A stretch of 64,000 nt of DNA. It comes from Priestia megaterium. Lineage in GTDB: Bacteria; Bacillota; Bacilli; Bacillales; Bacillaceae_H. The DNA lies in contig NZ_CP023317.1 of assembly GCF_009497655.1 (NCBI RefSeq), positions 4,493,501-4,557,500 on the forward strand, read 5' to 3'. How positions within the stretch are numbered: the first letter of the stretch is position 1; each line of letters starts with the position of its first letter. The translations under genes and the position numbers were made by a program. Positions 19,465 to 59,863 of this stretch are shown piece by piece. The notes below the pieces were generated by a model, which saw nothing but the letters and a program-made list of their open reading frames with translations, was not told where the DNA came from and did not search any database.

Positions 19465-19553
19465 ATAAAAAAATCCGAACGAGCTTGATTCTACCTCAAG
19501 AATCAAGCTCGTTCGGATTTCCCTTCAGCTAACATACGTTTATCCAAGCCTCT
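19465..19553. repeat. Stop-adjacent element, copy 1 (after coaE)
   Basis: Starting at the coaE stop on the minus strand are AGAGGCTTGGATAAACG and a spacer, then perfect 21-bp arms (19471-19491/19500-19520, core AAATCCGAACGAGCTTG) and T7. The AGAGGCTTGG start is the end shared by the other copies at 33444, 46311, 48284 and 59612. The opposite end is not recognisable. It doubles as the coaE terminator. Confidence 0.75.
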
Positions 19554-20150
19554 TTAATCTAGCCATAGGGCTAATATACTTAAAAGCTGTTGTTTTGTTT
19601 CCTCTACAGGTCCGTTGTTATTGATCACCGCATCGGCTAAGGCTACTTTCTGAATCAAAGGCAGCTGTGCGTGGATACGTGCATAGGCATCTTTCGTCGA
19701 GAGATCATTACGAGATTTTAACCTTTCTAGCTGCACAGGCTCATCGACATATACAACCACTACTTTGTCGACTAAATGCGTCAAATCACTTTCAAACAGC
19801 AGCGGAATATCTAATACCACAGCATCGTATCCTTCCTCGATATACCTTTCCTTTTGAGAAAGCATTTCTTTTCTTACCGCAGGGTGTACAATTGCATTCA
19901 ACTTTTTACGTTCTTCCTCTTGAGAAAACACAATTTCCCCTAAAGCCGCTCGATTGATCTCCGCATTTTCGTGAAGAATGGCACGGCCGAACGTCTCTAC
20001 AATTTGGTTATATGCTTCTTTTCCTGGTTCGACGACTTCTTTTGCAATGTGGTCAGCATCGATTACTGGAATATTAATATCTCTCAGCATTCCGGTTACC
20101 GTACTTTTTCCACTAGCAATTCCGCCCGTTAATCCAATTACAATTGACAT
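19554..20150 (-). CDS. coaE: Dephospho-CoA kinase
   Basis: Last step of coenzyme A synthesis, phosphorylating dephospho-CoA. The 198-residue P-loop kinase starts with GLTGGIASGKSTV (Walker A, about 6-18), followed by the DADHIAKEVV motif and a lid region. GGAGAGG lies before ATG 20150. It follows ytaF by 23 bp, in the run polA-mutM-ytaF-coaE, the same order as in B. subtilis. Its stop codon abuts a dispersed repeat that provides the terminator. Confidence 0.95.
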   Translation of the reverse strand: MSIVIGLTGGIASGKSTVTGMLRDINIPVIDADHIAKEVVEPGKEAYNQIVETFGRAILHENAEINRAALGEIVFSQEEERKKLNAIVHPAVRKEMLSQKERYIEEGYDAVVLDIPLLFESDLTHLVDKVVVVYVDEPVQLERLKSRNDLSTKDAYARIHAQLPLIQKVALADAVINNNGPVEETKQQLLSILALWLD

Positions 20151-20173
20151 TGGCCTCTCCTTTATCGCTTTAT

Positions 20174-20803
20174 TTAAAATCTAAAAATACCTAAAATAAT
20201 AAGCAGAACTCCCGGTAAAAAGGAAAACATTTTCATCCATGATAAACGTGAAAAAACTTTGCCAAACTGTATGCCAGCACTTAAAAAAAGTGAACTCATA
20301 AGAGCTACAGCAATTGCTAAAGCATACGGCGAATAACCTAATAAAGCTGCTCCAAACCCTGCTCCAAATGCATCAAGAGATAATGCAATTCCAAGTATAA
20401 ATGCTTCAATCCCAGTGATGGAACCTGAATTATCTAAATCTGCTGCCGTTGGTTTTTTCAATACGTTAATGACTAAGCCAATTGACTTAATTTCAATTTT
20501 CACTAATGTTTTTTCTTCTTTCACTCGAGATGAATCTGCCGGACAAAAAAACTGGTATAAAATCCACATTCCAAGTAGAACAAGAATACCTCCGCCTACT
20601 TTATTTAGTACATCCACTGAAAATAGATGCGTAAGTACCTTTCCTAAAAACATAGAAAACATTAAAGAAAATGCTGAGCAACATGAAATAATAAAAATGG
20701 ATTTCAGCGGGATTTTCACCTTTCGAAGTCCGTATGTCAGGCCAACGCTAAAGCTGTCAAGACTTACGGCAAAAGCAAGAATAAGTAAAGAAAATGTTAT
20801 CAT
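20174..20803 (-). CDS. ytaF: Sporulation membrane protein YtaF (MntP-like)
   Basis: Six hydrophobic helices with paired MntP-type motifs, LAFAVSLDSFSVGLTYG near the N-terminus and GIALSLDAFGAGFGAAL in the second half, separated by a hydrophilic loop (about 95-125). The internal repeat is typical of this ion-transporter-like family. ATG 20803 has AGGAG 10 nt upstream and gives 209 residues like B. subtilis YtaF; upstream frame extension to 20857 is not needed. Known in B. subtilis as sporulation-associated; transported ion unknown. Confidence 0.87.
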   Translation of the reverse strand: MITFSLLILAFAVSLDSFSVGLTYGLRKVKIPLKSIFIISCCSAFSLMFSMFLGKVLTHLFSVDVLNKVGGGILVLLGMWILYQFFCPADSSRVKEEKTLVKIEIKSIGLVINVLKKPTAADLDNSGSITGIEAFILGIALSLDAFGAGFGAALLGYSPYALAIAVALMSSLFLSAGIQFGKVFSRLSWMKMFSFLPGVLLIILGIFRF

Positions 20804-20863
20804 GATGAGAGGACTCCTTTCCTTTCTGTCTATACGTAGTATATGAAAGGAGCCCATCCATTG

Positions 20864-21697: not shown

Positions 21698-21718
21698 GTT
21701 TGTCACATCCTTTTTCCA

Positions 21719-24509: not shown

Positions 24510-24544
24510 AGCATGTGAATGGATAGAAATTGTCAAAAAGAATC

Positions 24545-32333: not shown

Positions 32334-33443
32334 GTGTACAAGCTTCATTTACATCGACTATTTCGCTTAGCTTGTGTGTTGGTAATTATTGCAGCATCTA
32401 TATTTCTTAGTTATTATGTCTCTTCTCTCATATATCCATTTATTATCGCCTGCTGCATCGCTTTTTTCATAAATCCTATGGTTAATCTATTTGAATTGAA
32501 GCTGCGTTTACCACGCTACTTAGCTGTTTTACTATCAATGGTTCTTATCTTCTCTCTTTTGGCCGGACTTATTACGTTACTTATCACAGAAATCATTGCA
32601 GGAAGTACGTATTTAGCGAAAGTTGTTCCCACAAATTTCAAAGAAGTGGTCATATTTATTGAAAATATTGCTACAGAACAAATACTTCCGTTTTATGAAC
32701 GCATTACTTCTATGTTTAATAACTTAAATACCGGTCAGCAAGCAACTATTTTATCGAACATTAAAGGCGTAGGCAACCATATCGCTCAAACGGTGGGTGA
32801 TTTTTTGCAAAATGTATTGCAAAGCATCCCAGTACTTTTATCCGTATTGCCTAATGCAGCTACTGTGATTATTTTTTCATTACTGGCTACTTTTTTTATT
32901 AGTAAAGATTGGTACAAGCTGATGACTAAAAGCAGCGTGTTTATTCCTAAAAAAGTAAGGGAAAATGGACAGACAGTTGTTGTGGAGCTTAAAAATGCAC
33001 TGTTTGGTTTTATTAAAGCTCAGCTTACGCTTATTTCGATTACCACAATCATCGTTCTTTTTGGTTTACTTGTTCTTAAGGTTGATTATGCTATTACAGT
33101 CGCTTTATTAATCGGCTTAGTAGATATTCTTCCTTACCTCGGAACAGGACTGGTTTTTGTTCCTTGGATGATTTATGCGTTTGCAACAGATAATGTGTCA
33201 TTTGCTGTAGGACTTTCGGTACTATATGCTGTAGTACTTGTGCAGCGACAAATTATGGAGCCCAAGATTCTGTCATCGAGCATTGGTCTTGACCCTCTTG
33301 CTACATTAATTGCTTTATTTGTAGGATATCAATTGATTGGATTTTTTGGATTAATAGTTGGCCCTGTTATTCTTGTTATTCTAAAAACACTTCATACAAC
33401 GGGAGTTTTTAAAGAAACGTGGCAGTTTATTATAGGAAAATGA
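32334..33443 (+). CDS. ytvI: AI-2E-family integral membrane protein YtvI
   Basis: 369-residue protein of the AI-2E/PerM family, about eight membrane helices: two near the N-terminus, a soluble middle (about 85-150) and a C-terminal bundle with the signature LGTGLVFVPWMIY and PKILSSSIGLDPLATLIALF. In B. subtilis YtvI is a sporulation membrane protein. The start is GTG 32334 with GGAGG 12 nt upstream, a rather long spacing. Substrate unknown. Confidence 0.88.
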   Translation: MYKLHLHRLFRLACVLVIIAASIFLSYYVSSLIYPFIIACCIAFFINPMVNLFELKLRLPRYLAVLLSMVLIFSLLAGLITLLITEIIAGSTYLAKVVPTNFKEVVIFIENIATEQILPFYERITSMFNNLNTGQQATILSNIKGVGNHIAQTVGDFLQNVLQSIPVLLSVLPNAATVIIFSLLATFFISKDWYKLMTKSSVFIPKKVRENGQTVVVELKNALFGFIKAQLTLISITTIIVLFGLLVLKVDYAITVALLIGLVDILPYLGTGLVFVPWMIYAFATDNVSFAVGLSVLYAVVLVQRQIMEPKILSSSIGLDPLATLIALFVGYQLIGFFGLIVGPVILVILKTLHTTGVFKETWQFIIGK

Positions 33444-33534: not shown

Positions 33535-33535
33535 G

Positions 33536-33931: not shown

Positions 33932-33960
33932 CACCTCTTCGCTTATTGAATTGCCTAAAC

Positions 33961-46310: not shown

Positions 46311-46581
46311 AAAAGGCTGAGGCATAACGAGAGGAATCCAATCTAAAGACGAACAAATGGGAGACATGAGCTGAACCGCTTGAGACACCGCCGTTGATTT
46401 CCGTGCAAGACTTCGCTTTCCGCTGGAGTCTTCGTCTTGCCCTCCAATCAACGGCTAGAAGAATCTAAACAGGTGAAACCTACGTTTACCCTAACAAAAA
46501 AAAACGAACCACTCATCAACATGGTTGATAAATGGTTCGTTTTTCACTTCGTCTAACATACTTTTGTCCCAGCTTCTTTTT
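46311..46581. repeat. Stop-adjacent element, copy 3 (between ytpI and ytoI), long form
   Basis: Full copy of about 270 bp. The left end AAAAGGCTGAGGCATAACGA is followed by ATCCAATCTAAAGACGAACA, then an internal cruciform GCCGTTGATT/AATCAACGGC (46390-46399/46446-46455) with inner arms GCAAGAC/GTCTTGC. Next come GAAACCTACGTTTACC, a 21-bp terminator-like hairpin (46500-46520/46524-46544, core AAAAACGAACCA) and the right end TTTTGTCCCAGCTTCTTTTT at the ytoI stop. No coding capacity. Confidence 0.85.
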
Positions 46582-47898
46582 TTATACTCTGTCCAATAAC
46601 TGAGCCATCATCATCGCTTTTCCTACTACAACTCCGGCGTTGTAGACTTCTACATCTAATTTAGCAAACTTCCGACCCAGTTCTAATAGCTTAGGGCGAA
46701 TTTCAATTACACTTTCAATTTGAACCGGTTTAATAAAATAAACGGTAATGTTTTCAATAACCAAATCACCTTTTTTATATAAGCGCAGAACACGATTAGC
46801 AGCTTCCGTCACAATAGTAGTAAAAACTCCGTATGAAATAGTTCCCATATAATTTGTCATTTGTGGCGTTACTTCACAGCGATAGACAGGTGCTTCCTTT
46901 GTCTCTTGTACGTCCATAAATTGATTCGTTACAATGTCATCAATGGTTTCTCCTACCTGTGGTTGACGCTGAATCATTTGCAGCGCTTTTAAGACATCTT
47001 GACGGCTGATAATGCCTTCTAGTCGGTGGTAATCGTCCACTACAGGCAGCACTTCAATCCCTTCCCATACCATCATATGAGCGGAAGAAGCGACCGATGT
47101 TTTCCCGTGAACGGTCATCGGATTTTTCGTCATCACTTTTTCAATCGAAGTGGAAAGATCATATCCAATAACATCTTTTGAGGTAACCATTCCATGAACT
47201 TTCATATGCTGATCTACTACAGGAAAACGACTGTGGTGCGTTTGATCGTTACATTCGTGCCATTTTTCAATCGTATCGGTTAACTGCAAGCTAACCGCTT
47301 CAGAGACGGGTGTTAAAATATCCTCTACAAGCACAATTTCTTTTTTTATCAACTGATCATAGATAGCCCGATTAATCATCGTTGCAACTGTAAATGTATC
47401 ATAGCTCGTTGAAATAATAGGAAGCTTAAGATCATCCGCAAGCTTCTTAACCCATTCTTCCGTATCAAAGCCGCCCGTAATTAAAACGGCTGCGCCTGCT
47501 TCAAGGGCTAATTCATGAGCGTTTACTCGATTCCCTACGATAAGAAGGTTTCCGGCCTCGGTATACCTCATCATAGCATCAAGCTTCATCGCTCCAATAA
47601 CAAACTTATTTAACGTTTTATGCAAACCTTCACGTCCGCCCAGCACTTGTCCATCTACAATGTTTACTACTTCGGCAAACGTGAGCTTTTCAATGTTTTC
47701 TTTCTTCTTTCGTTCAATTCGAATAGTCCCTACTCGTTCAATCGTTGAAACATATCCTTTATTTTCCGCATCTTTTATTGCTCGGTACGCCGTGCCTTCA
47801 CTGACAGTCAGTTCTTTGGCAATTTGGCGCACTGAAATTTTTTCACCAATTGGAAGCGAATCGATATACTGTAAAATTTGCTCATGTTTTGTCGCCAC
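46582..47898 (-). CDS. ytoI: HTH-DRTGG-CBS-hotdog regulator YtoI
   Basis: 438-residue protein built of four modules: an N-terminal winged helix (about 1-65, ISVRQIAKELTVSEGTAYRA), a DRTGG domain (about 70-185), two CBS motifs (about 195-310, MTKNPMTVHGKTSVASSAHM) and a C-terminal hot-dog thioesterase-like domain (about 325-438). The order suggests a DNA-binding regulator sensing an adenine nucleotide and an acyl-CoA, but no ligand is known. Same layout as B. subtilis YtoI. Confidence 0.9.
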   Translation of the reverse strand: MATKHEQILQYIDSLPIGEKISVRQIAKELTVSEGTAYRAIKDAENKGYVSTIERVGTIRIERKKKENIEKLTFAEVVNIVDGQVLGGREGLHKTLNKFVIGAMKLDAMMRYTEAGNLLIVGNRVNAHELALEAGAAVLITGGFDTEEWVKKLADDLKLPIISTSYDTFTVATMINRAIYDQLIKKEIVLVEDILTPVSEAVSLQLTDTIEKWHECNDQTHHSRFPVVDQHMKVHGMVTSKDVIGYDLSTSIEKVMTKNPMTVHGKTSVASSAHMMVWEGIEVLPVVDDYHRLEGIISRQDVLKALQMIQRQPQVGETIDDIVTNQFMDVQETKEAPVYRCEVTPQMTNYMGTISYGVFTTIVTEAANRVLRLYKKGDLVIENITVYFIKPVQIESVIEIRPKLLELGRKFAKLDVEVYNAGVVVGKAMMMAQLLDRV

Positions 47899-47979
47899 GT
47901 GTACTTCACCCTTCTAAAACGTTTTTACGTTTCATATGTCTTTTCTTTTATTATACGGGGGAAGTGAAATGGATTCAAT

Positions 47980-48216
47980 CTAACCTCTTTGACGCAAAGG
48001 CTTTCTCGCACTATTTTTTTGAATACCTGTCTTTTTACGGCGCGGTGCATAAAGTAGTGATGACAAATTGCCTCCGGCTACAAAAAGAGCAAAGGTAAGC
48101 CAGCTTATACTAAAAATCCCTTGCAAATTCGAAGTTGTTAACACTAAGTGCGGCATTGCATAGTAAAGCATCACTCCGCATAGTAAAAGCGATAAAATAA
48201 CTCGATTTTTTTCCAT
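47980..48216 (-). CDS. Small membrane protein of unknown function
   Basis: 78 residues with two hydrophobic segments (about 5-27 and 33-55) and a strongly basic, likely cytoplasmic tail (YAPRRKKTGIQKNSARKPL). A good ribosome binding site (AAGGAGGGAG) precedes ATG 48216. I do not recognise the family. It stands alone between ytoI and repeat copy 4. Confidence 0.72.
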   Translation of the reverse strand: MEKNRVILSLLLCGVMLYYAMPHLVLTTSNLQGIFSISWLTFALFVAGGNLSSLLYAPRRKKTGIQKNSARKPLRQRG

Positions 48217-48283
48217 AACTCTCCCTCCTTATTATTACTATCGTATGCGGGAAAGTAAAAAAAGCAGAACGTTTCTTTGCAAA

Positions 48284-48441
48284 TAAAAAGAGATTAAGAC
48301 ATAACTGCATCGATTCAATCTAAAGATGAACAAATGTGAAACCTACGTTCACCTTAACAATAAAAAAAGAACGAGTGATCGATATTATCGATTACTCGTT
48401 CTTTTTTAACTTTAACTGAAATCGTTTTGTCCCATCCTCTA
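48284..48441. repeat. Stop-adjacent element, copy 4 (after ytkL), medium form
   Basis: Left end AAAAAGAGATTAAGACATAAC, then GATTCAATCTAAAGATGAAC, GAAACCTACGTTCACC, a 21-bp hairpin (48363-48383/48387-48407, core AAAAGAACGAGT) with T6, and the right end TTTTGTCCCATCCTCT 7 bp from the ytkL stop. The internal cruciform of copies 3 and 5 is missing. Hairpin core differs from the other copies. Confidence 0.85.
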
Positions 48442-48448
48442 TTTATGA

Positions 48449-49129
48449 TTAAAGTTCCAATCCTTCTCCGACTTTTAATACTTTTCCTTCAATACCGGAT
48501 AAAGACTCAACAAATTGATGAGGATCTTGCTTAATTACAGGAAATGTATTGTAGTGAATTGGCACAACAAGCTTTGCCTGCACCCATTCCGCTGCGATAG
48601 CCGCATCTTCAGGTCCCATTGTAAAGTTATCTCCAATTGGAAGAAATGCTACGTCAGGCTCATGGCGACCAATTAACTTTAAATCAGAAAATAAAGCCGT
48701 ATCTCCAGCATGATAAATTGTCTTTCCTTCAATCGTTAAAAGCAAGCCAGCTGGCATTCCTGTATAAATAATTTTCTCATTATTTTCTGTATAACTTGAA
48801 CCGTGGAAAGCTTGGGTCAATTTCACCGTACCAAAATCAAATGTATAGGCTCCACCTATGCTCATTGGATGTACGTTTAAGCCTTGCCAGCTAAGATATG
48901 TAGCTAATTCTGCTACTGCCACAACAAGTGCACCGCTGCGCTTAGCAATTTCCACCGTGTCGCCTACATGATCATTATGGCCATGAGTCAGTAAAATCAC
49001 ATCTGCTTTTACATCTTCAGCATTTAAATCTGTTAATTCATTTCCAGTGATAAACGGGTCAATTAAAATTGTTTTTCCTTTTGTTTCAATTTTAACAACA
49101 GAATGTCCATGATAAGAAACGTGCATCAT
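48449..49129 (-). CDS. ytkL: Metal-dependent hydrolase, UPF0173 (YtkL-like)
   Basis: 226-residue metallo-beta-lactamase-fold protein with [10 protein letters not shown] (His49, His51, Asp53, His54) and later metal ligands in [10 protein letters not shown] and [14 protein letters not shown] stands 7 nt before ATG 49129. Members of this family are described as RNase Z-like or L-ascorbate lactone-type hydrolases; the substrate here is unknown. Confidence 0.9.
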
Positions 49130-49239
49130 ATATTCTCTCCTTTTACACTAACCTTTTCTATATTCTACCCGTCTGTTTTGGTTACAAAACAAGTGAATAC
49201 GCGGCTATCATATCACAAACTGCGCAAAAACATGCCTTA

Positions 49240-50361
49240 TTATGCTTGCTCTAATAAAGTTGTTGCATCAGCGTAAGTTAGACCGTGTGCATCTGCCACA
49301 GCCGCGTAAGTGACAAACCCATTTAGGGTGTTGATGCCTTGAAGAAGAGAAGGGTTTTTTAAGCACGCTTTTTTATACCCCTGATTTGCTATTTGCAAAG
49401 CATAAGGCACCGTTACGTTGGTCAGCGCTAAGGTCGACGTGCGGGGAACAGCTCCTGGCATATTAGCAACAGCATAATGCAAGACTTCATGCTTCGAATA
49501 AGTCGGGTTATCGTGAGTGGTAATGCGATCAGTTGTTTCAAAAATTCCCCCTTGATCAATAGCAATATCAACTACAACGGACCCTTTTGACATTGTTTGA
49601 ACCATTTCCTCGGTGACAAGCTTTGGCGCTTTAGCTCCGGGTATGAGAACCGCGCCTATCACTAAATCTGACTCTTTTACAGATTGTGCGATATTGTAGT
49701 GATTTGACATTAATGTCGTCACTTCTTTACCAAATAAATCATCAAGCTGGCGAAGGCGATCAGCGTTTAAATCAATTATTGTAACATCAGCCCCTAATCC
49801 GACCGCGATTTTAGCAGCATTGGTTCCTGCTACTCCTCCTCCAATAATCGTTACTTTTCCTCTTTGCACGCCTGGAACTCCACTTAATAAAATCCCTTTG
49901 CCACCTTTGGTTTTCTCCAAAAATTGAGCTCCAATCTGAGAAGACATTCTTCCTGCAACTTCGCTCATCGGAGTTAACAGAGGCAAGCTTTTGTTTGGAA
50001 GCTGTACAGTTTCATAAGCGATGCCTACCACCTTTTTATCAATCAATGCTTTCGTTAACGCTTCTTCAGCTGCCAAATGTAAATACGTAAACAAAATAAG
50101 TCCTTCGCGAAAATATCCGTATTCTTCTGAAATCGGTTCTTTTACTTTCATAACCATTTCAGCATCCCATGCTTCTTTTGCAGTATTTACAATAGAAGCT
50201 CCTGCATTTGTGTAATCTTCATCATGGAATCCAGAGCCTTCTCCTGCCTGTGTTTCAATATATACATCATGCCCACCGTTAACTAAAGCTGTAACACCAG
50301 CTGGAGTAATAGCCACGCGATTTTCATTGTTTTTTACTTCTTTCGGCACTCCAATTTTCAC
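49240..50361 (-). CDS. ald: Alanine dehydrogenase
   Basis: NAD-dependent reversible deamination of L-alanine to pyruvate. The 373 residues begin [20 protein letters not shown], the AlaDH/PNT N-domain signature, and carry the Rossmann motif [13 protein letters not shown] with substrate His in FTYLHLA. In B. subtilis Ald is needed for growth on alanine and for sporulation. The 150 bp upstream (50362-50511) contain its likely promoter region but no clear hexamers. Confidence 0.96.
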
Positions 50362-50511
50362 CTTTATCCCTCTTTTCTTATATCAGTGATTAACTGAAAA
50401 AAGAACGCCACACCAAATCCTTTAGAAAACCGGATTTACTATGACGTTACCTTTCGATAGAGCTCAGCATAATCCTGCTTTTCTTAGTTTATATACAGTA
50501 TATGCATGTAG

Positions 50512-50679
50512 TTATTCATATAGTTCGTTATCGCTCTTTGCTTCTGGATTTTCAACTACAGAAGCCATAGCATCGCCAATAACGCCGCTTGAATAAGAAT
50601 CCATTAGCTGTCTTGATGTCTCTTTTTCTCCTTCAAAATCATATTCATATACATGCTGCGGATGTTTTTTGTCTTTCAT
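50512..50679 (-). CDS. Small acidic protein, 55 residues, unknown
   Basis: Short frame starting at ATG 50679 with GGAG 9 nt upstream and ending TAA 50512. The product begins MKDKKHPQHVYEYDFEGEKE and ends ENPEAKSDNELYE; it is hydrophilic, acidic and has no Cys. The middle SYSSGVIGDAMASVVE resembles an amphipathic helix. Codon use looks coding. No family recognised; it may be a small sporulation or stress protein, which is a guess. Confidence 0.68.
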   Translation of the reverse strand: MKDKKHPQHVYEYDFEGEKETSRQLMDSYSSGVIGDAMASVVENPEAKSDNELYE

Positions 50680-50801
50680 ATGTCACTTCTCCTTTTTCAC
50701 TCTATTTTCTTTACGAATGTGAACTTTATTTCATAATCCCTTACATGATCTTTTCTATTTTCTTCTTAATTGCTCTAGTTATACCATTTATCTCACATCA
50801 A

Positions 50802-50833
50802 AAAACGCCCGCAGAATTTTCTGCGGACGTTTT
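50802..50833 (-). terminator. Terminator of argGH
   Basis: Arms AAAACGTCCGCAGAA/TTCTGCGGGCGTTTT on the minus strand (one G-U pair), then T2, just after argH. Confidence 0.85.
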
Positions 50834-50843
50834 GAGAACTGTT

Positions 50844-52232
50844 TTATATTGAAGCTTTTTCATGCAATTCATCTTTAGCTAGCTGAATTGCTTTTTTCAC
50901 TTGTTCAAACCCTGTTCCTCCCGCGCTGTTGCGACGATTAACAGCTGTTTTTGGACTTAATACATGGTAGATGTCTTCCTCGAATAAATCTGACGCTTCT
51001 TTATATTGCTCGAGCGGCAAATCCATTAGGTAGATATTTTTCTGAATACAAACGAGAACCAGTTTCCCAACCACTTCATGTGCTTCACGAAACGGCATAC
51101 CTTTTGCAGCAAGATAGTCAGCTAACTCCGTTGCATTTGAAAAATCTTGTTTCGTAGCTTTTTCCATAACATTTGTTTTTACTGTCATTGTTTCAATCAT
51201 GCCAGCAAAGATCGTTAAGCAGCCTTCAATCGTTGTAACCGTATCGAACATGCCTTCTTTATCTTCTTGTAAGTCTTTGTTGTATGTTAAAGGCGTGCCT
51301 TTTAACACAGTCAATAAGCTAAATAAGTGACCATATACTCGTCCTGTTTTACCACGAATTAACTCCGCCATATCAGGATTTTTCTTTTGAGGCATAATAC
51401 TGCTGCCCGTTGCGTACGTATCGTCCATTTCAATAAATTGAAACTCTTGACTAGACCATAAAATTAACTCTTCACAAAAACGAGATAAATGCATCATTAA
51501 AATAGAACTGTTGCTTAAAAACTCTAAAATAAAGTCACGGTCGCTGACAGCATCCATACTGTTTTGATAAATTCCATTAAAGCCTAGAAGCTCCGCGCTG
51601 TAATGACGATCAATTGGAAATGTCGTACCAGCTAAAGCTCCTGCTCCTAAAGGAGATAAATCAATACGCTTTAGTGATTCCGCATAACGCTCAGCATCAC
51701 GCTTAAACATTGAAACATAAGCCATTAGATGATGAGCAAAAGAAACCGGCTGCGCGCGCTGTAAATGTGTGTAGCCTGGAAAAATAGTTTCGACATGTTG
51801 ATCTGCTTTTGTAAGCAGCACATCTTCTAGATTTTCGATCAGTCCTACAATTTGTTGAACATGCTTTTTTAAATATAAGTGCATATCTGTAGCAACTTGA
51901 TCATTACGGCTTCGACCCGTATGAAGCTTACCTCCAACCGGACCAATTTCATCAATTAATAGCTTTTCTAAATTCAAATGAATATCTTCATATTGAGCAG
52001 AAAATGTTAGTTCTTTCTTCTTAGCTTTTTCAAGCAGTGTTTGAAGGCCTTTTTTAATTTGTGACGCTTCATCTCCAGAAAGAATGCTGCATTTCTCAAG
52101 CATTGTTACATGTGCTAAACTGCCTTCAATATCTTCTTCTACAAGATGCTGATCAAATGAAATGGACGCACCGAACTCGTCAATCCATTGTTCAGGGCGT
52201 TTCGTAAAACGCCCTCCCCAAAGTTTGGTCAT
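50844..52232 (-). CDS. argH: Argininosuccinate lyase
   Basis: Splits argininosuccinate to arginine and fumarate. The fumarase/aspartase-superfamily signature [15 protein letters not shown] is present, along with [16 protein letters not shown]. The frame is open to 52289, but ATG 52232 overlaps the argG stop in an ATGA and gives MTKLWGGRF, the standard ArgH N-terminus (462 residues). AGAAGGTGA lies upstream. Second gene of argGH. Confidence 0.97.
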
Positions 52233-53437
52233 ACCGTTGTCACCTTCTTTTGATTTACCATGCTGCTCACTTGTGTTGGAAGACCCCATAATGAGATAAA
52301 ACCAACTGCTGCATTGTGATCAAATTCATCTTCTTTTGTATATGTTGCAAGTTTTTCATTGTATAAAGAATTAGGAGATTTACGTCCCTCTACGATAGCA
52401 TGCCCTTTAAATAGTTTTACTCTCACTGTTCCGTTCACATATTGCTGCGTATCCTTTAAGAATGCAAGCAGTGAATTTGTTAATGGAGAGAACCATAAAC
52501 CTTCATAGATAACTTCTGTTAATTTTTTCTCAATCACTGGTTTGAAGTGCGCTACTTCTTTCACTAATGTTAAATCTTCCAGCTCTTTGTGTGCTTTAAT
52601 TAATGTCATAGCAGCTGGACACTCATATACTTCACGTGATTTAATTCCCACAAGACGGTTTTCTACATGATCAATACGTCCAACTCCATGCTTACCTGCA
52701 ATTTCATTCAATTCTAGAATTAACTGAGCTAGCGTGTAAGATTGACCGTTTAATGATACTGGAACACCTTCAACGAATTCAATTTCTACTACATCCGCTG
52801 TGTTCGGAGTGTTTTCAAGAGAAGCCGTTAGGTCATATGCTTCTTCAGGCGGAGCTGCCCAAGGATCTTCAAGAACGCCGCACTCGTTACTTCTTCCCCA
52901 TAAGTTTTGGTCAATTGAAAACGGGCTGTCTAAATTAATTGGAATTGGAATATTCTTTTCTTTTGCATACTCGATTTCTTCTTCACGAGACCATTTCCAG
53001 TCACGAACAGGAGCTAAAACTTCTAAGTGTGGATTTAATGCTTTAATTGATACTTCGAAACGCACTTGGTCATTTCCTTTTCCCGTACATCCATGTGCGA
53101 CAGCTACTGCATTTTCTTGTTCTGCTACTTCTACAAGCTTTTTAGCGATTAGCGGTCTAGATAGTGCAGATACCAATGGATATTTTCCTTCATATAATGT
53201 GTGTGCTTGAAGTGCTGCTAACGCAAATGTATTGGCATATTCTTCTTTTGCATCAATCACATATGATGATACCGCTCCAACTGTTAAGGCTTTTTCTTTA
53301 ACGAACTTTAAATCTTTTCCTTCGCCTACATCTAAACAGCAAGCTACCACATCGTACCCTTTTTCCTGTAACCATTTAATTGCAACTGATGTATCTAAAC
53401 CTCCAGAATATGCTAAAACAACTTTTGGATTACTCAT
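52229..53437 (-). CDS. argG: Argininosuccinate synthase
   Basis: ATP-dependent condensation of citrulline and aspartate. The N-terminal PP-loop [17 protein letters not shown] (about 7-23) is present with [15 protein letters not shown] and [18 protein letters not shown]. 402 residues. GGAGG precedes ATG 53437. Promoter and two ARG-box-like sites upstream indicate control by the arginine regulator AhrC/ArgR. Confidence 0.97.
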
Positions 53438-53479
53438 TATCTATTCCTCCTACAAATTATATATATATTAATACAACCG

Positions 53480-53497
53480 TTTTAATTTTTATTCATT
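53480..53497 (-). promoter_or_regulatory. ARG box downstream of argG promoter
   Basis: Minus strand AATGAATAAAAATTAAAA agrees with the Bacillus ARG box CATGAATAAAAATTCAAG at 15 of 18 positions and lies just past the predicted transcript start. Confidence 0.65.
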
Positions 53498-53509
53498 TAA
53501 TCTACTATT

Positions 53510-53538
53510 ACTTTAACAACTTTTTAATCTATTTTCAA
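53510..53538 (-). promoter_or_regulatory. Probable argGH promoter
   Basis: Minus strand TTGAAA (53538-53533), 17-bp spacer, TAAAGT (53515-53510). Confidence 0.65.
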
Positions 53539-53620
53539 TAGTTATTCAAAAAAAAGTATATAAATTCACGTTTTTTTTAATTTAATAGGATAAAAGCTTT
53601 TAAAATACTGTAAAAATAGA

Positions 53621-53638
53621 CGTGAATGAATATTCCTG
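53621..53638 (+). promoter_or_regulatory. Candidate distal ARG box
   Basis: CGTGAATGAATATTCCTG matches the ARG box consensus at 13 of 18 positions, about 110 bp upstream of the argG -10. A pair of boxes is common in arginine promoters. Confidence 0.45.
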
Positions 53639-53751
53639 CCTTAAATGCATTGTATATTTATATGCATAAATCAAGTATAAATGATTTATTTTTCACTTAA
53701 AGTAGCTCTGGCTTTTGTCATTGTATAAAATGGAAGGGAAGAGGTGAAAAA

Positions 53752-54066
53752 ATGGAGCGCTTTTTTACTTATGACAACAGACTCGGTATAAAAATTCCTG
53801 CTCTTGAAAGAGAATGGACATTCTATTCTGAAAAAGTTCAGCAGGATATCCTCCTAACATGGGAATCCATTCGAGGGCAAATTCCAGACAAAATTCAATC
53901 TGTAGAAAAGAGGATTAATCAAAAACAAGCGGCGTTAGAAGATGAGACTAATTTTATCCGCTCCTGTGAATTAAATAGCGAGATAGGAGAACTTGCTTCT
54001 ATTATTAATGATTTGTGGATTTGGTATCGAACAAATGAGGAAATATCAAAAAAAGTTCACGGATAG
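53752..54066 (+). CDS. Conserved hypothetical protein, 104 residues
   Basis: Soluble, largely helical protein beginning MERFFTYDNRLGIKIPALER and containing SVEKRINQKQAALEDETN, a likely coiled coil (about 45-80), then LASIINDLWIWYR. GAGGTG is 6 nt before ATG 53752. I do not recognise a named family. It is convergent with the EcsC-family gene and occupies part of the place where B. subtilis has moaB. Confidence 0.72.
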   Translation: MERFFTYDNRLGIKIPALEREWTFYSEKVQQDILLTWESIRGQIPDKIQSVEKRINQKQAALEDETNFIRSCELNSEIGELASIINDLWIWYRTNEEISKKVHG

Positions 54067-54068
54067 AC

Positions 54069-54109
54069 AAAAAAACGAGTCTCATGAAAAATTAATGAGA
54101 CTCGTTTTT
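54069..54109. terminator. Bidirectional terminator at 54.1 kb
   Basis: Perfect 15-bp arms AAAAACGAGTCTCAT/ATGAGACTCGTTTTT with a 9-nt loop between the convergent 104-residue gene and the EcsC-family gene. Confidence 0.88.
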
Positions 54110-54937
54110 CTTATCCAGCAAATAGCGGTATTGGTAAAAGCGCTTCGCATAATCTGTCACTTGTTTGGCCATTCGATAATTCATCCCTCCGCCAACCATC
54201 ATACTCACAATTGGCAAACGATTATAAACTTTTCGCTTCGCAGCAAATATAGCTAGCGTTTTTCCAATTTGCACAACGATTTTTTGCAGCCACGTCTTAT
54301 CTACAATTTGATCAACACCTTCATAAAAATACGGGTCAAATTCTTGGCTTAGCTCACTCTTTAATTGATGCCATCCCTCAGCCTGAAGGTGTCTAGGTAA
54401 CGTTGCTGCATGGAAAACTTTTAGCGTTAGCATAAGCTCTGAAGGAGTCTGGATATGATAGCCGTAGCTCATTGCTGCCTGTTGCACCGCTTGAATATTC
54501 ATGCATAAAACAGCGGGTATATCAATACCGACTAGCAGCGATTGGCCGGTTCCTGAAAGTGCTCCTTGACTCAGCGCATACAACCGCAGCTTGGCCATTT
54601 GCTGTTCGCATATATAAGAAAGCTGATCTACTTGAAGGGAATTCATTTCTGACAGATCTGTGATATCTTCTTTGAATACACGGGCGGTTTCAATAATTCG
54701 TTTTGTCGCTTGAGTTTGCATTTCCGTACCTTGAATTAATGCAGTTAACTGAAAGAGTCCCTCATCAATTTTATGTAAATAGGTCTCACGAACAGAAGCA
54801 GGAATTAAGTTAAGCCCTTTTTCTAACCATTCTTCGTACAATAACTCCATCTCAGTTGCTTCTACGCTCTGTAAGCTCTCTTCCCATTTATAGATTTCTT
54901 CTAAAAGCTGTTCTTCGCGATTCGTTAATATCATCAT
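54092..54937 (-). CDS. EcsC-family protein
   Basis: 281-residue protein with the EcsC family layout: an N-terminal helical segment (about 1-95), amphipathic helices, and the C-terminal Gly-rich stretch LPIVSMMVGGGMNYRMAKQV. In B. subtilis the family's founding member is encoded beside the EcsAB ABC exporter, but no exporter is near here. AAAGGG precedes ATG 54937; a second ATG follows directly. Function unknown. Confidence 0.82.
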   Translation of the reverse strand: MMILTNREEQLLEEIYKWEESLQSVEATEMELLYEEWLEKGLNLIPASVRETYLHKIDEGLFQLTALIQGTEMQTQATKRIIETARVFKEDITDLSEMNSLQVDQLSYICEQQMAKLRLYALSQGALSGTGQSLLVGIDIPAVLCMNIQAVQQAAMSYGYHIQTPSELMLTLKVFHAATLPRHLQAEGWHQLKSELSQEFDPYFYEGVDQIVDKTWLQKIVVQIGKTLAIFAAKRKVYNRLPIVSMMVGGGMNYRMAKQVTDYAKRFYQYRYLLDKKNESH

Positions 54938-55072
54938 GTCACCCTTTCAAGAAATAAGTAGTTTTATTTTTATTATAACAAATAATGCATCCGTTACATT
55001 TTGCTTCCTATATTATTTCTTTCTTCTATACGTTGTAAACCTTCTTTCAACCGTCAGCTCCTTACGCTATAT

Positions 55073-55108
55073 AAAAAAGCTGATTTCCTAACAAGGAAAT
55101 CAGCTTTT
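55073..55108 (-). terminator. Terminator of ackA
   Basis: AAAAGCTGATTTCCT/AGGAAATCAGCTTTT with a short loop and T6 on the minus strand, about 60 bp beyond ackA. Confidence 0.85.
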
Positions 55109-55165
55109 CGTTAGTTTGCCTGACAATTTATGAGAATTCATGCATTGAAGAGGCACTTTATGAAC

Positions 55166-56356
55166 TTAAATATTCGCTAAACGAGTAACGTCACGTGCAA
55201 TCATAACTTCTTCGTCTGTAGGAATAACCATAACTTTAACTGGAGAATGAGGGTAGCTAATAAATGCTTCTTCTCCTTGTACACTATTTAAAGCTGGATC
55301 CCAATAAACGCCCATGAACTCTAAACCACGAAGAACGCGAGCACGTACAACATCACTGTTTTCTCCAATACCTGCTGTGAAGATGATTGCATCTACACCA
55401 GACATACGAGCAGCATAAGAACCGATATATTTATGAATGCGGCTAGCAAATACTTCAAGTGCTGTTTCAGCACGTTCATTGCCTTCAGCGCTTGCTTTGA
55501 TTAGATCGCGTAGGTCACTAGAAATACCAGATACACCTAAAAGACCACTTTCTTTATTTAATACATTTAATACTTCGTCAGCAGTTTTTCCTGTTTTCTC
55601 CATAATAAATGGAATTAATGCAGGGTCAATGTTACCTGAACGAGTTCCCATTGCTACACCAGCTAATGGTGTGAAGCCCATTGATGTATCAATTGACTTG
55701 CCGCCTTCAATTGCAGCGATACTTGCACCGTTACCTAAGTGACAAGAAATTAAGCGCAATTGTTCGATTGGACGGCCAAGAAGCTCAGCTGCACGCTCAG
55801 AAACATATTTATGAGATGTGCCGTGGAAACCGTATTTACGAACGCCATACTTTTCATAGTACTCGTACGGTAAGCTGTACAAGAATGATTTTTCTGGCAT
55901 TGTTTGATGGAATGCTGTATCGAAGACTGCTACAGCTGGAACATTTGGAAGAATATCTTGGAACGCTTTAATTCCCACAATGTTTGCTGGGTTGTGAAGC
56001 GGTGCTAAATCAGATAAAGCTTCAATTTCCGCTAATGTTTCATCTGTGATTAAAACAGAATCAGCAAATTTCTCTCCGCCGTGTACTACACGGTGACCTA
56101 CACCAGTGATTTCATCGTATGATTGAATGATGTTTTGAGAAAGTAACTTTTCAACTAAAATTTTAACTGCAACAGCATGGTCAGGGATTTCTGTAATATC
56201 CGTTTGTTTTTCACCATTTACCGAGATCGTGAAAACAGCGTTATCTAAACCAATTCGTTCTACTAAACCTTTTGTTAATACCGTCTCACTTGGCATTTCA
56301 AATAATTGAAACTTAAGTGAAGAACTGCCGGCGTTGATTGCCATGATTTTTGACAT
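55166..56356 (-). CDS. ackA: Acetate kinase
   Basis: Converts acetyl phosphate and ADP to acetate and ATP in overflow metabolism. The 396-residue ASKHA-fold enzyme starts with [17 protein letters not shown] and has [11 protein letters not shown], the catalytic region GYRVVHGG-like [11 protein letters not shown], and [17 protein letters not shown] precedes ATG 56356. A near-perfect cre about 56 bp upstream of a predicted start site suggests activation by CcpA as in B. subtilis. Confidence 0.97.
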
Positions 56357-56468
56357 AAAAAAACAGCTCCTTCTTTATTATACGTGCATCATAAACATAA
56401 CGAACAGAACATAAAAGTGTAATCTCTACAATATTCTATGCATTTCGACACGATTTCTATCCTTATTC

Positions 56469-56497
56469 ATTTAATCATTCACGACAATAGATTTCAA
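56469..56497 (-). promoter_or_regulatory. Possible ackA promoter
   Basis: Minus strand TTGAAA (56497-56492), 17-bp spacer, TTAAAT (56474-56469). A second -10-like TATAAT lies closer to the gene. Confidence 0.55.
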
Positions 56498-56510
56498 GAG
56501 CTATACATCA

Positions 56511-56524
56511 TGAAAACGCTACCG
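56511..56524 (+). promoter_or_regulatory. Catabolite-responsive element upstream of ackA
   Basis: TGAAAACGCTACCG matches TGNAANCGNWWNCA at all but the last base. Its centre lies about 56 bp before the start predicted from the promoter at 56469-56497, the position from which CcpA activates B. subtilis ackA. Confidence 0.65.
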
Positions 56525-56552
56525 GTAAAAATTCATTATTTTCGAAAAAGAC

Positions 56553-57545
56553 TTACTTTTTATTAACGCTGAACCATTGGTCCATTTGAGCCATAATATC
56601 ACTCATTGCTTCTCGATTACTGAACTTCGGCAAATTCACAAGCAGCGCTTGATCAGGCGCTGTTACCCCTTCTCCCTGCTTTTGAAGAATGATAATACTC
56701 TTAGCAGCCTGCTCTTGTTTGAACATTGAAAGCGGCAGCTGAACGATTCCTTGAACGATTGCTTCCTCTTTTAGCAGCGGCTGTAATAAATGAGACTGTT
56801 CAGACTCGAACAAGTTATTTGGAATAAGGGCCACTACGTATCCTCCGTCTTTTACATGGCGCAAGCTTTGTTCAATGAATAAGTGATGAGCATAGGTATG
56901 ACCTTCTTCAGCTCTTACTTTATACTCTTTTGCCCCTTCATCGTTTGGATAATAACCAACCGGCAGGTCACAGACAACTAAATCAACAGGATCAATAAAA
57001 AGCGGCTGTAAGCTGTCTTGATTAAATAATTGAACGCCGTGCTTCTGTAAGTTTGCATTTACATATGTCAATTGAAGTAATAAATCATCCACATCTACAC
57101 CGTATACATGTTCAATTGACGCAGCGTGTGTATTTAAAATGGTTGTTAATAAGTTTCCAGCTCCTACTGCTGGATCTAAAAGCGTATACTTATCTTTTCC
57201 TGCCATGAATTTTCCAACTAAGTAGCTGACAAATAGTCCTACAGCATCAGGGGTCATTTGGTGGTTAGGCTGAACTGCTTCTTTCATCCCCTTTAAAATA
57301 GCTAGCTGATATGCTTTTCGAATCGTTTCTTTTTCAAAATGATCAAGCGTGATTGAATCGTATTCTTTTTTTAAACGTTTTTTGGTTACCTCATCTAGCT
57401 CTTCTTGCAAAATAGTTCCTTGAAACAAGTTTTCTCCCGTTTCAGCTACTGCTTCTAAATATACGCAGTTTAGTTCTTTTCTTAAAATAATAGCTGTTTG
57501 ATCAATTACACCAAATAGCTTTTCCATACTAGCTAATTGACTCAT
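56553..57545 (-). CDS. ytxK: Class I SAM-dependent N6-type methyltransferase (YtxK-like)
   Basis: 330 residues. A helical N-terminal region (about 1-95) precedes a methyltransferase Rossmann fold with LLDPAVGAGNLLTTIL (SAM site) and the catalytic-type motif VVCDLPVGYYP, in which DLPVGY replaces the NPPY of adenine methylases, so it may be an adenine methyltransferase relative without restriction partner. GGAGG is 6 nt before ATG 57545, giving the B. subtilis length; the frame extends to 57611. Confidence 0.85.
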   Translation of the reverse strand: MSQLASMEKLFGVIDQTAIILRKELNCVYLEAVAETGENLFQGTILQEELDEVTKKRLKKEYDSITLDHFEKETIRKAYQLAILKGMKEAVQPNHQMTPDAVGLFVSYLVGKFMAGKDKYTLLDPAVGAGNLLTTILNTHAASIEHVYGVDVDDLLLQLTYVNANLQKHGVQLFNQDSLQPLFIDPVDLVVCDLPVGYYPNDEGAKEYKVRAEEGHTYAHHLFIEQSLRHVKDGGYVVALIPNNLFESEQSHLLQPLLKEEAIVQGIVQLPLSMFKQEQAAKSIIILQKQGEGVTAPDQALLVNLPKFSNREAMSDIMAQMDQWFSVNKK

Positions 57546-57641
57546 ATTCTGCCTCCTGTGTAATGAAATGATATCTATATAAATGAGTAAACGTCCTATT
57601 TGGAACATCATATTTTATCATAAAAGCTTCTTAAAACACAA

Positions 57642-57672
57642 AGAAGGCGAAAAACATTGTTTTCCGCCTTCT
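57642..57672 (-). terminator. Terminator of tpx
   Basis: AGAAGGCGGAAAAC/GTTTTTCGCCTTCT (one G-U pair) on the minus strand, followed by a T-rich stretch. Confidence 0.78.
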
Positions 57673-57692
57673 GCCGAACGCCATCGACAATC

Positions 57693-58187
57693 TTACTTAG
57701 CTGCTTTAGCTGCTTCGATTGCTGCTTCGTAGTTCGGATGCTCAGTTACTTCTGGTAAGTACTCAACATACGTTACGTTGTCATTTGAGTCTACTACAAA
57801 GATTGAACGAGCCAATAAGCGTAATTCTTGAATAGCTACACCATATGCTTCGCCGAAAGATAAGTCGCGGTGGTCAGATAATGTTTGAACATTATCAATG
57901 CCGTTAGCACCACACCAGCGCTTTTGAGCAAACGGTAAATCTACGCTCACTGTTAATACTTTTACGTTATCTAATTTAGCTGCTTCTTCGTTGAAGCGGC
58001 GAGTTTGCGCATCACAAACTCCAGTATCAATAGAAGGAACTACACTGATTAGGCGAACAGAACCCTTTGTACTGTCAAGCGTTACTTCTGATAAATCATT
58101 TGCTAAAACGGTAAAGTTTGGCGCCTTGTCTCCAACCTTTACTTGATTTCCTAATAATGTTACATCGTTACCTTTAAATTTAGTCAC
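57693..58187 (-). CDS. tpx: Thiol peroxidase Tpx
   Basis: Atypical two-Cys peroxiredoxin reducing peroxides with thioredoxin. Peroxidatic Cys58 lies in [14 protein letters not shown] and resolving Cys92 in KRWCGANG. The frame opens at 58253, but GGAGG is 8 nt before GTG 58187; the 164-residue product then begins [10 protein letters not shown] and matches Tpx length. Single gene with its own terminator. Confidence 0.95.
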
Positions 58188-58301
58188 GAATAATTCCTCC
58201 TTTAAATAAGTATGTACACTGTTCATATTAGCTTGTCTGTCTCTATATTGCAATTAAATGACATACATACTATAACGCTATATGCTAGAAAACATGCCCA
58301 A

Positions 58302-58352
58302 TAAAAAAAGGCTTTGCTTGCTTCTTTTATCGTTCAAAGAAGCAAGCAAAGC
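58302..58352 (-). terminator. Terminator of ytfIJ
   Basis: Perfect 17-bp arms GCTTTGCTTGCTTCTTT/AAAGAAGCAAGCAAAGC with an 8-nt loop and T7 on the minus strand. Confidence 0.88.
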
Positions 58353-58364
58353 TTTATTTTATCC

Positions 58365-58832
58365 CTACAAATTAAAATCATTTGCACCGTCATGATGCTG
58401 ATTTTGTTGATTATGATGATCCTGCTGATGGTTATTTCGCTTGAACATTTGCTGCACGCGTTCAATGGCTTGAGGTGCTGTATCTAAAATCTTTTCATAT
58501 AAATGTGTACTTTCATTAAGGTGAAGCATTTTAATTCCGCTTCCACTCACAATTAAAAAGGCAATTGGCGTAATTGATACACCGCCACCGCTACCTCCGC
58601 CAAATGGATGACCTGATTCTTGCTGATGCTGCCCTGGAGAAGATGGCGCATGCCCTTCTACTCCAAACTCGCTTCCACCCGCTGCAAAGCCAAAACCTAC
58701 TTTTGAGACAGTTAAAATAACGCTGCCATCAGGTGTTTCTACGGGATCACCAATGATTGTATTAACATCAATCATTTCCTTTAAATTTTCCATAGCTGTC
58801 GACATTAAACTTTTAATTGGATGTTCTGCCAT
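58365..58832 (-). CDS. ytfJ: Sporulation protein YtfJ (GerW family)
   Basis: 155-residue protein with the GerW/YtfJ core (MSTAMENLKEMIDVNTIIGD; ILTVSKVGFGFAAGGSEF) and a C-terminal tail unusually rich in Asn, Gln and His (about 135-152). B. subtilis YtfJ is made in the forespore and helps L-alanine germination. AGGAGG precedes ATG 58832. It is 13 bp after ytfI and forms a two-gene unit with it. Confidence 0.92.
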   Translation of the reverse strand: MAEHPIKSLMSTAMENLKEMIDVNTIIGDPVETPDGSVILTVSKVGFGFAAGGSEFGVEGHAPSSPGQHQQESGHPFGGGSGGGVSITPIAFLIVSGSGIKMLHLNESTHLYEKILDTAPQAIERVQQMFKRNNHQQDHHNQQNQHHDGANDFNL

Positions 58833-58845
58833 TAAGATAACCTCC

Positions 58846-59544
58846 TTATGTTTTCACAGAGTGTGTCTTGTTCTTATTTGACGACTTCCATCTTTTGCGA
58901 CGCTTTTTGGACGTATGCCGCCAGTATCTCAAGGTCCGTAAACCTACTAGAATAGCTTGACCAACTCGAAAAGAAATTATGCACTCAAATACCGTTTCTG
59001 ACCAAAGATGTTGAAATACAGGAGTAACGCTCATTACAGGCATATCTTTTAGTTTCATATAACGGCTGATTATACCAACTATGCCCCCCTTTGCAGACCA
59101 TACCGCCCCGGTAAGTACGCCTGTTAACGCAGCATCACCTAAGCCGAAACGGCTGTGCCATTTAATATCCCTTACCGTCACTTTCTGTAAGAAACGACGA
59201 AAAATTTTATGAAAACCGACTACCTGTTCAAGGAATTGCTTCGCATTTTCTAACATGCTTAACCCGTCTTCTACAGAATAATCACTCCATGAATTCTCGT
59301 CTTCTTTTCCTTGATCACCCATTCCTTTCTTCTTTTCAACAAGCAAACGAGGAGAATCTTTTTTTACTTTCACTACCGGAATTTCATATGTATAGCGAAT
59401 AAGACCAAACCAAGCCCTGAGTCTCACTCTGTAATAATCGTTATCTCGGACATGATGAAGCTCTACAAATAGCGTGATTTTTGTCCATACAATAAGTACA
59501 ATAACAATTAAAAGTGCTAGCAATATCCATAAAAGCCATAGCAC
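58846..59544 (-). CDS. ytfI: DUF2953 membrane-anchored protein (YtfI-like)
   Basis: About 232 residues with an N-terminal transmembrane helix (LLWILLALLIVIVLIVW) and a soluble DUF2953 domain ending in a membrane-proximal amphipathic region and a basic tail (KKRRKRWKSSNKNK). GTG 59544 is 8 nt after AAGGAG; another GTG at 59553 overlaps that site. It precedes ytfJ, suggesting a joint role in spores, unproven. Confidence 0.85.
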   Translation of the reverse strand: MLWLLWILLALLIVIVLIVWTKITLFVELHHVRDNDYYRVRLRAWFGLIRYTYEIPVVKVKKDSPRLLVEKKKGMGDQGKEDENSWSDYSVEDGLSMLENAKQFLEQVVGFHKIFRRFLQKVTVRDIKWHSRFGLGDAALTGVLTGAVWSAKGGIVGIISRYMKLKDMPVMSVTPVFQHLWSETVFECIISFRVGQAILVGLRTLRYWRHTSKKRRKRWKSSNKNKTHSVKT

Positions 59545-59611
59545 ATCCTTCACTCCTTCTTAGCTTCACATTATCTCCAAAACACAGAATATTAAACCTT
59601 ATGAAAACAAT

Positions 59612-59863
59612 AAAAAGAGGTTGAGACATAACGAAATGAATCCAATTTAAAGACGAACAAATATATACATGAGCTTAACCGCTTGCGACACCGCAGTTGA
59701 TTTCCGTGCAAGGCTTCGCTTTCCCTCCAATCAACTGCTAGAAAGACCTACACACATGAAACCTACGTTTACCATAACCCAAAAAAACGAACCACTAATC
59801 AAACACCTTGATCAATGGTTCGTTTTTCAATTCGTCTAAATATTTTTGCCCCAGCCTCTTTTT
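59612..59863. repeat. Stop-adjacent element, copy 5 (after yteJ), long form
   Basis: Left end AAAAAGAGGTTGAGACATAAC, then ATCCAATTTAAAGACGAACA, an internal inverted repeat GCAGTTGATT/AATCAACTGC (59693-59702/59729-59738), GAAACCTACGTTTACC, a 20-bp hairpin (59783-59802/59808-59827, core AAAAACGAACCA) and the right end TTTTGCCCCAGCCTCTTTTT at the yteJ stop. It fills nearly all of the 59554-59864 gap and has no coding frame. Confidence 0.85.

Follow-up and report, generated by a model that had tools for sequence, protein, structure and literature searches.

Replacement of a stem-loop by a mobile element is in print for one staphylococcal insertion sequence (IS) and its composite transposons. IS1272 and TnSha1, of the IS1182 family, are reported to insert into hairpins—several of them terminators confirmed by RNA-seq—with a blunt deletion and in both orientations at one terminator, and the data presented give no sign of an orientation preference (Furi 2016, PMC4923244). 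This insertion was named inverted-repeat-replacing, and the ends are proposed to attack the feet of the extruded stem-loop (Wan 2017, PMC5678879). Here, we describe a much shorter repeat from a 64,000-nucleotide window (positions 4,493,501–4,557,500) of the genome of Priestia megaterium. It is present in five copies in this window and in at least 147 non-overlapping copies in the genome of 5.24 Mb. As reported for IS1272/TnSha1, where the stem-loop is wholly or partly deleted without target duplication (PMC4923244, PMC5678879), it is found in the place of a stem-loop. IS1272 itself has 1,934 bp, a transposase, 16-bp inverted repeats, and 13 common copies in the strains of Wan et al., whereas the present element is about 105–350 bp long, bears no transposase gene, and carries a predicted internal terminator. 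We propose, with a probability of about 0.82, that the copies form a high-copy, non-autonomous transposable element—similar to miniature inverted-repeat transposable elements (MITEs)—that would recognize the stem-loop of an intrinsic terminator and exchange it for itself, presumably with the help of an IS1182-family transposase acting in trans.

Other short repeats share single traits with this element. In Methanosarcina acetivorans, short elements are attributed to an IS of the IS1182 family, with ISMac2 as partner (14 copies of 160 bp and seven of 169 bp; PMC3852290), but these belong to an archaeon, have far fewer copies, and are described in a passage that does not mention terminators; their table rows show 4 and 0 in what is apparently the direct-repeat column. 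SPRITE, BOX, and RUP of Streptococcus pneumoniae are likewise small dispersed repeats of a Firmicute, and SPRITE owes its name to a resemblance to rho-independent terminators, yet their description in the review does not extend to a replacement of host terminators (PMC10969869). The SLS families (Bcr1 and Efa-1, for example) are dispersed, conserved stem-loops, many of them intergenic and some from Firmicutes; they are set apart by listing rather than by sequence, as Table 3 of that study holds no family of Bacillus megaterium or Priestia (Cozzuto 2008, PMC2267715).

Literature searches with the end sequence and the core sequence returned nothing on bacteria, the end sequence giving one virus paper. 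Further searches on repeats and MITEs of megaterium, on IS1182 together with MITE, palindrome, or terminator, and on terminator-targeting transposition showed no description of the family, by title or abstract start, among the papers listed, with most subscription journals outside their scope. Neither a high-copy transposase-less element exchanging terminators nor the inverted GGGACA/TGTCCC intergenic repeats of Firmicutes—mentioned in an earlier, sequence-only reading of the window—came up in the literature searched. The type of reaction is already known; the family appears to be new within that literature, as does its route of amplification—stem-loop replacement would here be how an element without transposase reached its copy number in one genome.

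Native hairpins at orthologous sites of sister genomes

A random draw (seed 7) of 24 loci, made among the copies with the window segment of copies 2 to 4 excluded, was compared with four sister genomes (G001, G003, G007, and G008), in which the upstream flank could be located at 94 of 96 sites. Sites were classed with R1, a covariance model of the left module of the element built from 29 sequences, all five window copies included. From 90 R1 rows, 64 were entered; the 26 left out were antisense or second matches at loci with a stronger match, or weak matches such as one of 24.8 bits at site L345, whose printed sequence is a native hairpin despite this match. The 94 orthologous sites divide into 53 filled in the same orientation, seven filled in reversed orientation, and 34 classed as empty (19 of them in G003), and 20 of the 24 loci have at least one empty sister site. 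On inspection, 33 sites are empty: site L366 (locus 9, G007) holds a left-truncated copy (39 bits with R1) and was misfiled owing to a short flank match.

At 32 of the 34 sites classed as empty, a hairpin scores above every one of 50 letter shuffles of its stretch, and the outer base of the hairpin lies −14 to 0 nt from the junction at 28. At loci 22 and 23, the native hairpin is placed 21–31 nt farther on; at locus 23, the copy of the P. megaterium genome under study—hereafter the own genome—bears a degenerate left end. Junctions were mapped for the 27 sites classed as empty (15 loci) whose counterpart in the own genome has both ends. In 19 of these cases and at 11 of the loci, a replaced stretch of 19–30 nt has its centre within 0.5 nt of the centre of the native hairpin. 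Locus 20 is typical, with GAAAAT[ACCGTTCATATAGCTGACTATATGAACGGT]ATTTTTT exchanged for GAAAAT[GAGGCTGGGACA...TGTCTCACCCTC]ATTTTTT: the A-tract and T-tract of the host still flank the site, and the stem-loop that they enclosed has given way to the element, with no target duplication. The outer flanks of the 101 two-ended copies of the own genome also pair with each other, scoring 3.29 as against 2.51 with shuffled partners (highest of 200 shuffles, 2.84). By this junction mapping, the leading A's and trailing T's, which the sequence-only reading had taken as part of the shared end, are instead the remains of the stem of the target terminator. An origin from a TA-targeting IS630-type element, considered for the TA-rich flanks, was rejected, the A and T flanks being the stem base of the target itself.

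The same reading had pictured a mobile or duplicated 3′ module that supplies terminators, and this picture stands: the element is present or absent at the same sites among related strains, it lies next to stop codons genome-wide, and it has a covarying hairpin with a T-run. One refinement is that the element replaces the terminator rather than landing beside it. This exchange is the well-supported part of our reading, and it combines two features of IS1272-type insertion, a stem-loop as target and the removal of this stem-loop without duplication.

At loci 2, 6, 11, 12, 19, and 22, different sister genomes carry the element in opposite orientations at the same native terminator site. Judged from these sequences, such sites suggest repeated independent hits on one terminator.

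Anatomy, hairpin, and genomic placement of the element

In the own genome, 150 of 3785 first-look candidates were scored with R1, and all of them matched; removal of three overlapping antisense matches leaves the at least 147 copies. At least eight additional places of the own genome lie outside these 150 matches (e.g., 3498587, 2573518, and 3686832). The pattern GAGGCTGGGACA with at most one mismatch has 90 matches in the whole genome and the reversed pattern none; at least one of the 90 (L026) is without an adjoining element and seems to match by chance.

Read in the direction of the upstream gene, the element starts with the left end GAGGCTGGGACAAAAG (in the window copies a form of GAGGCTGGGACAAAAGTA). 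A conserved linker of about 20 nt, TTTTAGTTGAAG, leads to the covarying hairpin, which is positioned about 35 nt inside the left end and whose stem opens with an A run and closes with a T run. On its 3′ side follow a middle of varying length and the inverted end GAGG(T/C)TGAGACATAAC (in copies 2–5 of the window the inverted form of GAGG(T/C)TGAGACATAACGAAAT). This right end was recognized within 420 nt in 101 of the 147 copies, giving lengths of 105–350 nt with a peak near 328, and was not recognized in the other 46. Full-length copies bear a GC-rich core of up to about 125 nt (GTTGATTTCCGTGCAAG...CTTTCCGCGGG...) in their middle, and near full-length matches to the element are found on three plasmid records, all of Priestia megaterium. 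Short, multicopy, flanked by terminal inverted repeats, and without a transposase gene, the element has the makeup of a MITE.

The hairpin is conserved as a structure. In an alignment of 29 copies, 97% of the cells pair and eight of 12 pairs show two-sided changes; none of 500 shuffles reached the observed covariation values. Between 48 orthologous pairs of filled copies—five further pairs were skipped for poor alignment, and some loci are possibly separate insertions—26 stem pairs are altered on both sides versus 5.3 expected from independent changes, a count in which a change common to several sisters recurs and which is hence not the number of independent events. Pairing persists in 21 of these 26, and sliding the partner by two columns as a control lowers the two counts to 9 and 3. 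With this covariation, the element shows the conserved stem-loop and T-run of an intrinsic terminator, and on a simple reading the hairpin is retained for its function as terminator of the upstream gene—termination itself being predicted. The element would recognize the stem-loop of an intrinsic terminator and take its place, and its own hairpin would end the transcript of the upstream gene. Such an own terminator might keep the exchange near neutral for the host, which would explain the high copy number; as the upstream gene is not obviously left without a terminator, the element can probably spread widely. This gives a testable answer to the question of how a compact genome tolerates a high-copy element.

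The surroundings of all 147 copies were examined with genes called by a simple codon-usage caller trained on 26 long open reading frames of the window; this caller misses small genes, and the context tallies are approximate (copy 3 of the window is tallied as tandem because its YtpI-like neighbor was missed). Going upstream, the first gene boundary met is a same-strand stop for 139 copies (median distance to the left end, 8 nt) and a gene start for eight; a same-strand stop lies within 30 nt of the left end in 121. Random placement relative to stop codons, which had been set beforehand as the test that could refute the module idea, is not what the genome shows. Of 30 copies between convergent genes with both ends recognized, 25 have each end no more than 30 nt from the adjoining stop. 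Window gene ends without the element bear a strong native hairpin in 20 of 52 cases, and 13 of these 20 start within 10 nt of the stop. As native hairpins start this close behind stops, the adjacency needs no other cause: the element takes over the position of the terminator that it replaced.

A stop at the left end combined with a gene start beyond the right end is found for 94 copies and the reverse arrangement for six, four of which have a recognized right end 5–37 nt from a stop. The constant orientation to the upstream gene claimed from the five window copies is hence a strong rule, but not an absolute one, with seven of the 60 filled sister sites reversed. In the 65 forward stop-to-start copies with both ends, the next start follows at a median of 197 nt. 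The strand of the element matches the presumed direction of replication in 124 of 147 copies, with the split assumed at 2.45 Mb.

If this reading is true, one genome would have well over a hundred mRNAs, unrelated to each other, with a common 3′ untranslated tag at their end (AAAGAGGCTGGGACAAAAGTATTTTAGTTGAAG and the hairpin); an RNA-binding protein, a nuclease, or a small RNA might use this tag as a putative shared handle. The intrinsic terminators of the genus would then be a mobile part of the gene that is turning over. We lean, with some reserve, toward this wider view of a selfish element with one-for-one terminator exchange, of terminators as a mobile gene part, and of the common tag as a possible handle. 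It would also carry a warning, as a conserved 3′ end in these species may derive from a mobile element, and would offer many natural experiments on terminator identity, in which the same gene bears a native or a swapped terminator in sister species.

Candidate transposase and rival explanations

Stem-loop replacement is in print for IS1272, and therefore IS1182-family transposases were searched with PF13751 and NF033551. They are found in G002, G004, and G006; G008 has a single marginal match, and G005 and G009 match neither model. IS1182-family relatives occur in Priestia abyssalis, Bacillus sp. CGMCC 1.16541, Mesobacillus, Thermolongibacillus, and Peribacillus. The transposase-bearing elements and remnants have ends mostly near GAGG(G/C)TGNNNCAAAAG, a rule that the left end of the present element fits. 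Bacillaceae members of the family resemble it in their ends, in their end hairpins, in six loci beside stop codons, and in some cases in the GC-rich core; they differ in carrying a transposase or its remnant, in their right end, and in ends that are themselves hairpins, whereas the present element has its hairpin only after the linker. The six loci (L255, L256, L258, L264, L297, and L310, out of 19 IS loci inspected) have the IS end 2–13 nt from a called stop. Four further loci are taken up below; the others either show no clear end next to a called gene or are located within a copy of the element described here. At L255, L256, L258, L264, and L310, terminator-like hairpins are seen at the IS1182-family ends, which means that a terminator-like structure comes with a full IS as well.

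In one sister genome, three loci (L239/L254, L268, and L294) have a copy of the element with an IS or IS remnant in the position of the hairpin, as expected if IS1182-type transposases target any terminator. An interpretation of L239 as one long GGGACA-ended element carrying a transposase was rejected: the ends of the IS are distinct, and those with GGGACA belong to the invaded copy of the element. Three IS loci (L254, L260, and L310) have the GC-rich core between the left end and the transposase. This core is also found without element ends, on plasmids of Peribacillus, Bacillus badius, Paenibacillus, and others, and hence is no proof of descent from IS1182 elements. As a length of 105–350 nt leaves no room for a transposase, the element is at most an IS1182 derivative and not a member of the family. 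A DDE transposase of this family might act on it in trans, by the structure-dependent stem-loop-replacing route proposed for IS1272.

Under stricter filters, R1 matches are present in 29 of 61 genomes: eight of 10 of the genus (own genome included), none of six from other genera of the family, and 21 of 45 from other families of the order. The genomes without a match include the genus members G004 and G005, next to G010–G015 from the other genera. This patchy distribution fits a mobile element, and divergence of the element could hide copies in some genomes.

Several observations weigh against the proposed exchange by an IS1182-type transposase. At the level of the sites, L365 (locus 9, G003) is the sole empty one without a short hairpin, and the centres of replaced stretch and native hairpin disagree in eight of the 27 junction cases (loci 7, 8, 9 twice, 14 in G003, and 23 three times); T-tract repeats or alignment ambiguity, additional deletions, decayed ends, or the misfiled site partly account for these eight. 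The forward-to-reverse ratio of 94 to 6 departs from IS1272-type insertion without orientation preference, so the bias would have to come from selection after insertion—at tandem genes, perhaps selection for a new terminator about 45 nt behind the stop and not up to a few hundred. At the level of the enzyme, neither PF13751 nor NF033551 has a match (E 0.001) in the own genome (G000) or in the element-rich sisters G001, G003, and G007, and G004 has several IS1182 matches yet no R1 match, so that transposase and element do not co-occur; the partner may have disappeared before the element did, or it may be another enzyme. The right end GAGGTTGAGACATAAC fits the IS end rule only in part, the IS end lies farther from the called gene end at four of the inspected loci (L311 about 25, L260 about 37, L259 about 42, and L309 about 167 nt), and an autonomous element with exactly this pair of ends was not found among the sequences searched. 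At L365, a long-range stem, GGGCACTTCTA ... TAGAGGTGCCC, followed by a T-run can apparently be made out by eye, beyond the reach of the short-loop search.

The enzyme-level points are those that speak for a terminator replacement by some hairpin-recognizing transposase outside the IS1182 family (e.g., a single-strand HUH/Y1 enzyme), with the likeness of the left end due to convergence on terminator-like sequence: four element-rich genomes without an IS1182 match, a right end that misfits, and no co-occurrence across the genus. No Y1 mechanism is known to us in which the target stem-loop is taken out symmetrically, the inverted-repeat-replacing outcome is in print for IS1272, and the element shares similar ends and the GC-rich core with IS1182 elements of relatives. 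Hence, we hold this alternative to be unlikely, if still the one to be taken most seriously.

Immobile, old terminators copied among loci by gene conversion or by recombination between similar terminators would need no transposase at all. The A- and T-tracts common to terminator hairpins could prime such recombination, and the loss of one end in copy 1 of the window resembles a T-run deletion. However, the hairpins of empty sites are unlike the element in sequence and vary among loci, the breakpoints are symmetric in the stem, and the exchanged 100–330 nt have sharp ends and occur in both orientations at one site, which makes this explanation highly improbable. Presence and absence alone, compared here among unrooted strains, give no direction, so the element might also be ancestral and later lost, with a short hairpin left behind or evolved in its place. 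Such precise loss would need to leave every locus with a perfect palindrome of its own sequence, and for copy 2 and locus 4 all four sisters share the native hairpin, the element being found only in the own genome; we give this reversed direction hardly any credence. Exchange of a native terminator for the element, with an IS1182-type transposase in trans, remains the reading that we prefer.

The five copies of the window

The sequence-only reading had started from five window copies that share an end. Six matches to AAAGAGGCTGGGACAAAA (at most three mismatches) are found in the window versus 0.05 expected from shuffles; they represent five left ends and one right end, and R1 picks exactly the same five copies. 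Also confirmed were the inverted end on four copies—it is present in copies 2–5 and absent from copy 1—and the position of the first end close behind a minus-strand stop, with GAGG 1, 7, 5, 9, and 6 nt past the stop in copies 1–5. Copies 2 and 3 need a small correction: on their other side, they abut the stop of a convergent plus-strand gene as well. Among the gene names given, coaE and the FxsA family hold, and ytoI, ytkL, and yteJ are names taken from B. subtilis. For all five copies, the terminator swap is visible in at least one sister genome.

Copy 1 (19466–19552, minus strand) lies behind coaE (19554–20150, minus strand), with its left end at 19541–19552 and the hairpin and T-run at about 19467–19520. 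It is truncated on the right, apparently by deletion, because its ortholog in G003, a longer intact element, has both ends; G007 holds a similarly truncated copy, and G001 and G008 bear the native hairpin TAAAGAGTGAATGATTGCATTCACTCTTTTTTT. The right half was seemingly deleted between two TTTTTTTATTG stretches, one of the own terminator and one of the target (19465–19475; L435). Deletions of this kind may be the source of some of the 46 copies without a recognized right end.

Copy 2 (33449–33528, minus strand; left end 33517–33528, hairpin about 33465–33498, right end 33449–33464) is placed between the FxsA family gene (33536–33934, minus strand) and the gene of an AI-2E transporter (32334–33443, plus strand). 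All four sister genomes have the native palindrome AAAGTGTGTGAAAGAAGCTTCTTTCACACACTTT here, that of G003 differing by one base.

Copy 3 (46313–46576, minus strand) has its left end at 46565–46576, the hairpin at about 46496–46546, the GC-rich core at about 46372–46454, and the right end at 46313–46328. It sits between a DRTGG-CBS-4HBT gene (46582–47898, minus strand), whose product has SpxR as best NCBIfam model with a score under the cut-off of this model, and the YtpI-like gene (46014–46310, plus strand). The site is filled in G008 and empty in G001, G003, and G007, where the perfect native hairpin AAAAGAAGCTGCAAAGCAGCTTCTTTT stands between the same two stops.

Copy 4 (48290–48439, minus strand; left end 48428–48439, hairpin about 48362–48407, right end 48290–48305) follows a metal-dependent hydrolase gene (48449–49129, minus strand). 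The site has the native hairpin AACACGATGCAGCTGCACCGTGTT in G003 (plus-strand reading), longer copies in G001 and G007, and a copy lacking the right end in G008. Copy 5 (59617–59858, minus strand), with the left end at 59847–59858, the hairpin at about 59781–59827, the GC-rich core at about 59675–59740, and the right end at 59617–59632, lies behind the gene of an RDD protein (59865–60389, minus strand); its site bears the native hairpin AAAAAGAGCTGTTCTCTAAGAGAATAGCTCTTTTT in G003 and is filled in G001, G007, and G008. A pattern scan of 46000–60200 for hairpins lists those of copies 3 and 5; that of copy 4 is absent from the list.

Rfam at the gathering score has no match to the element in the window. 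Its only matches there are leaders on the minus strand, two T-boxes and one ribosomal protein L20 leader, at 5083–5318, 12526–12774, and 10230–10352.

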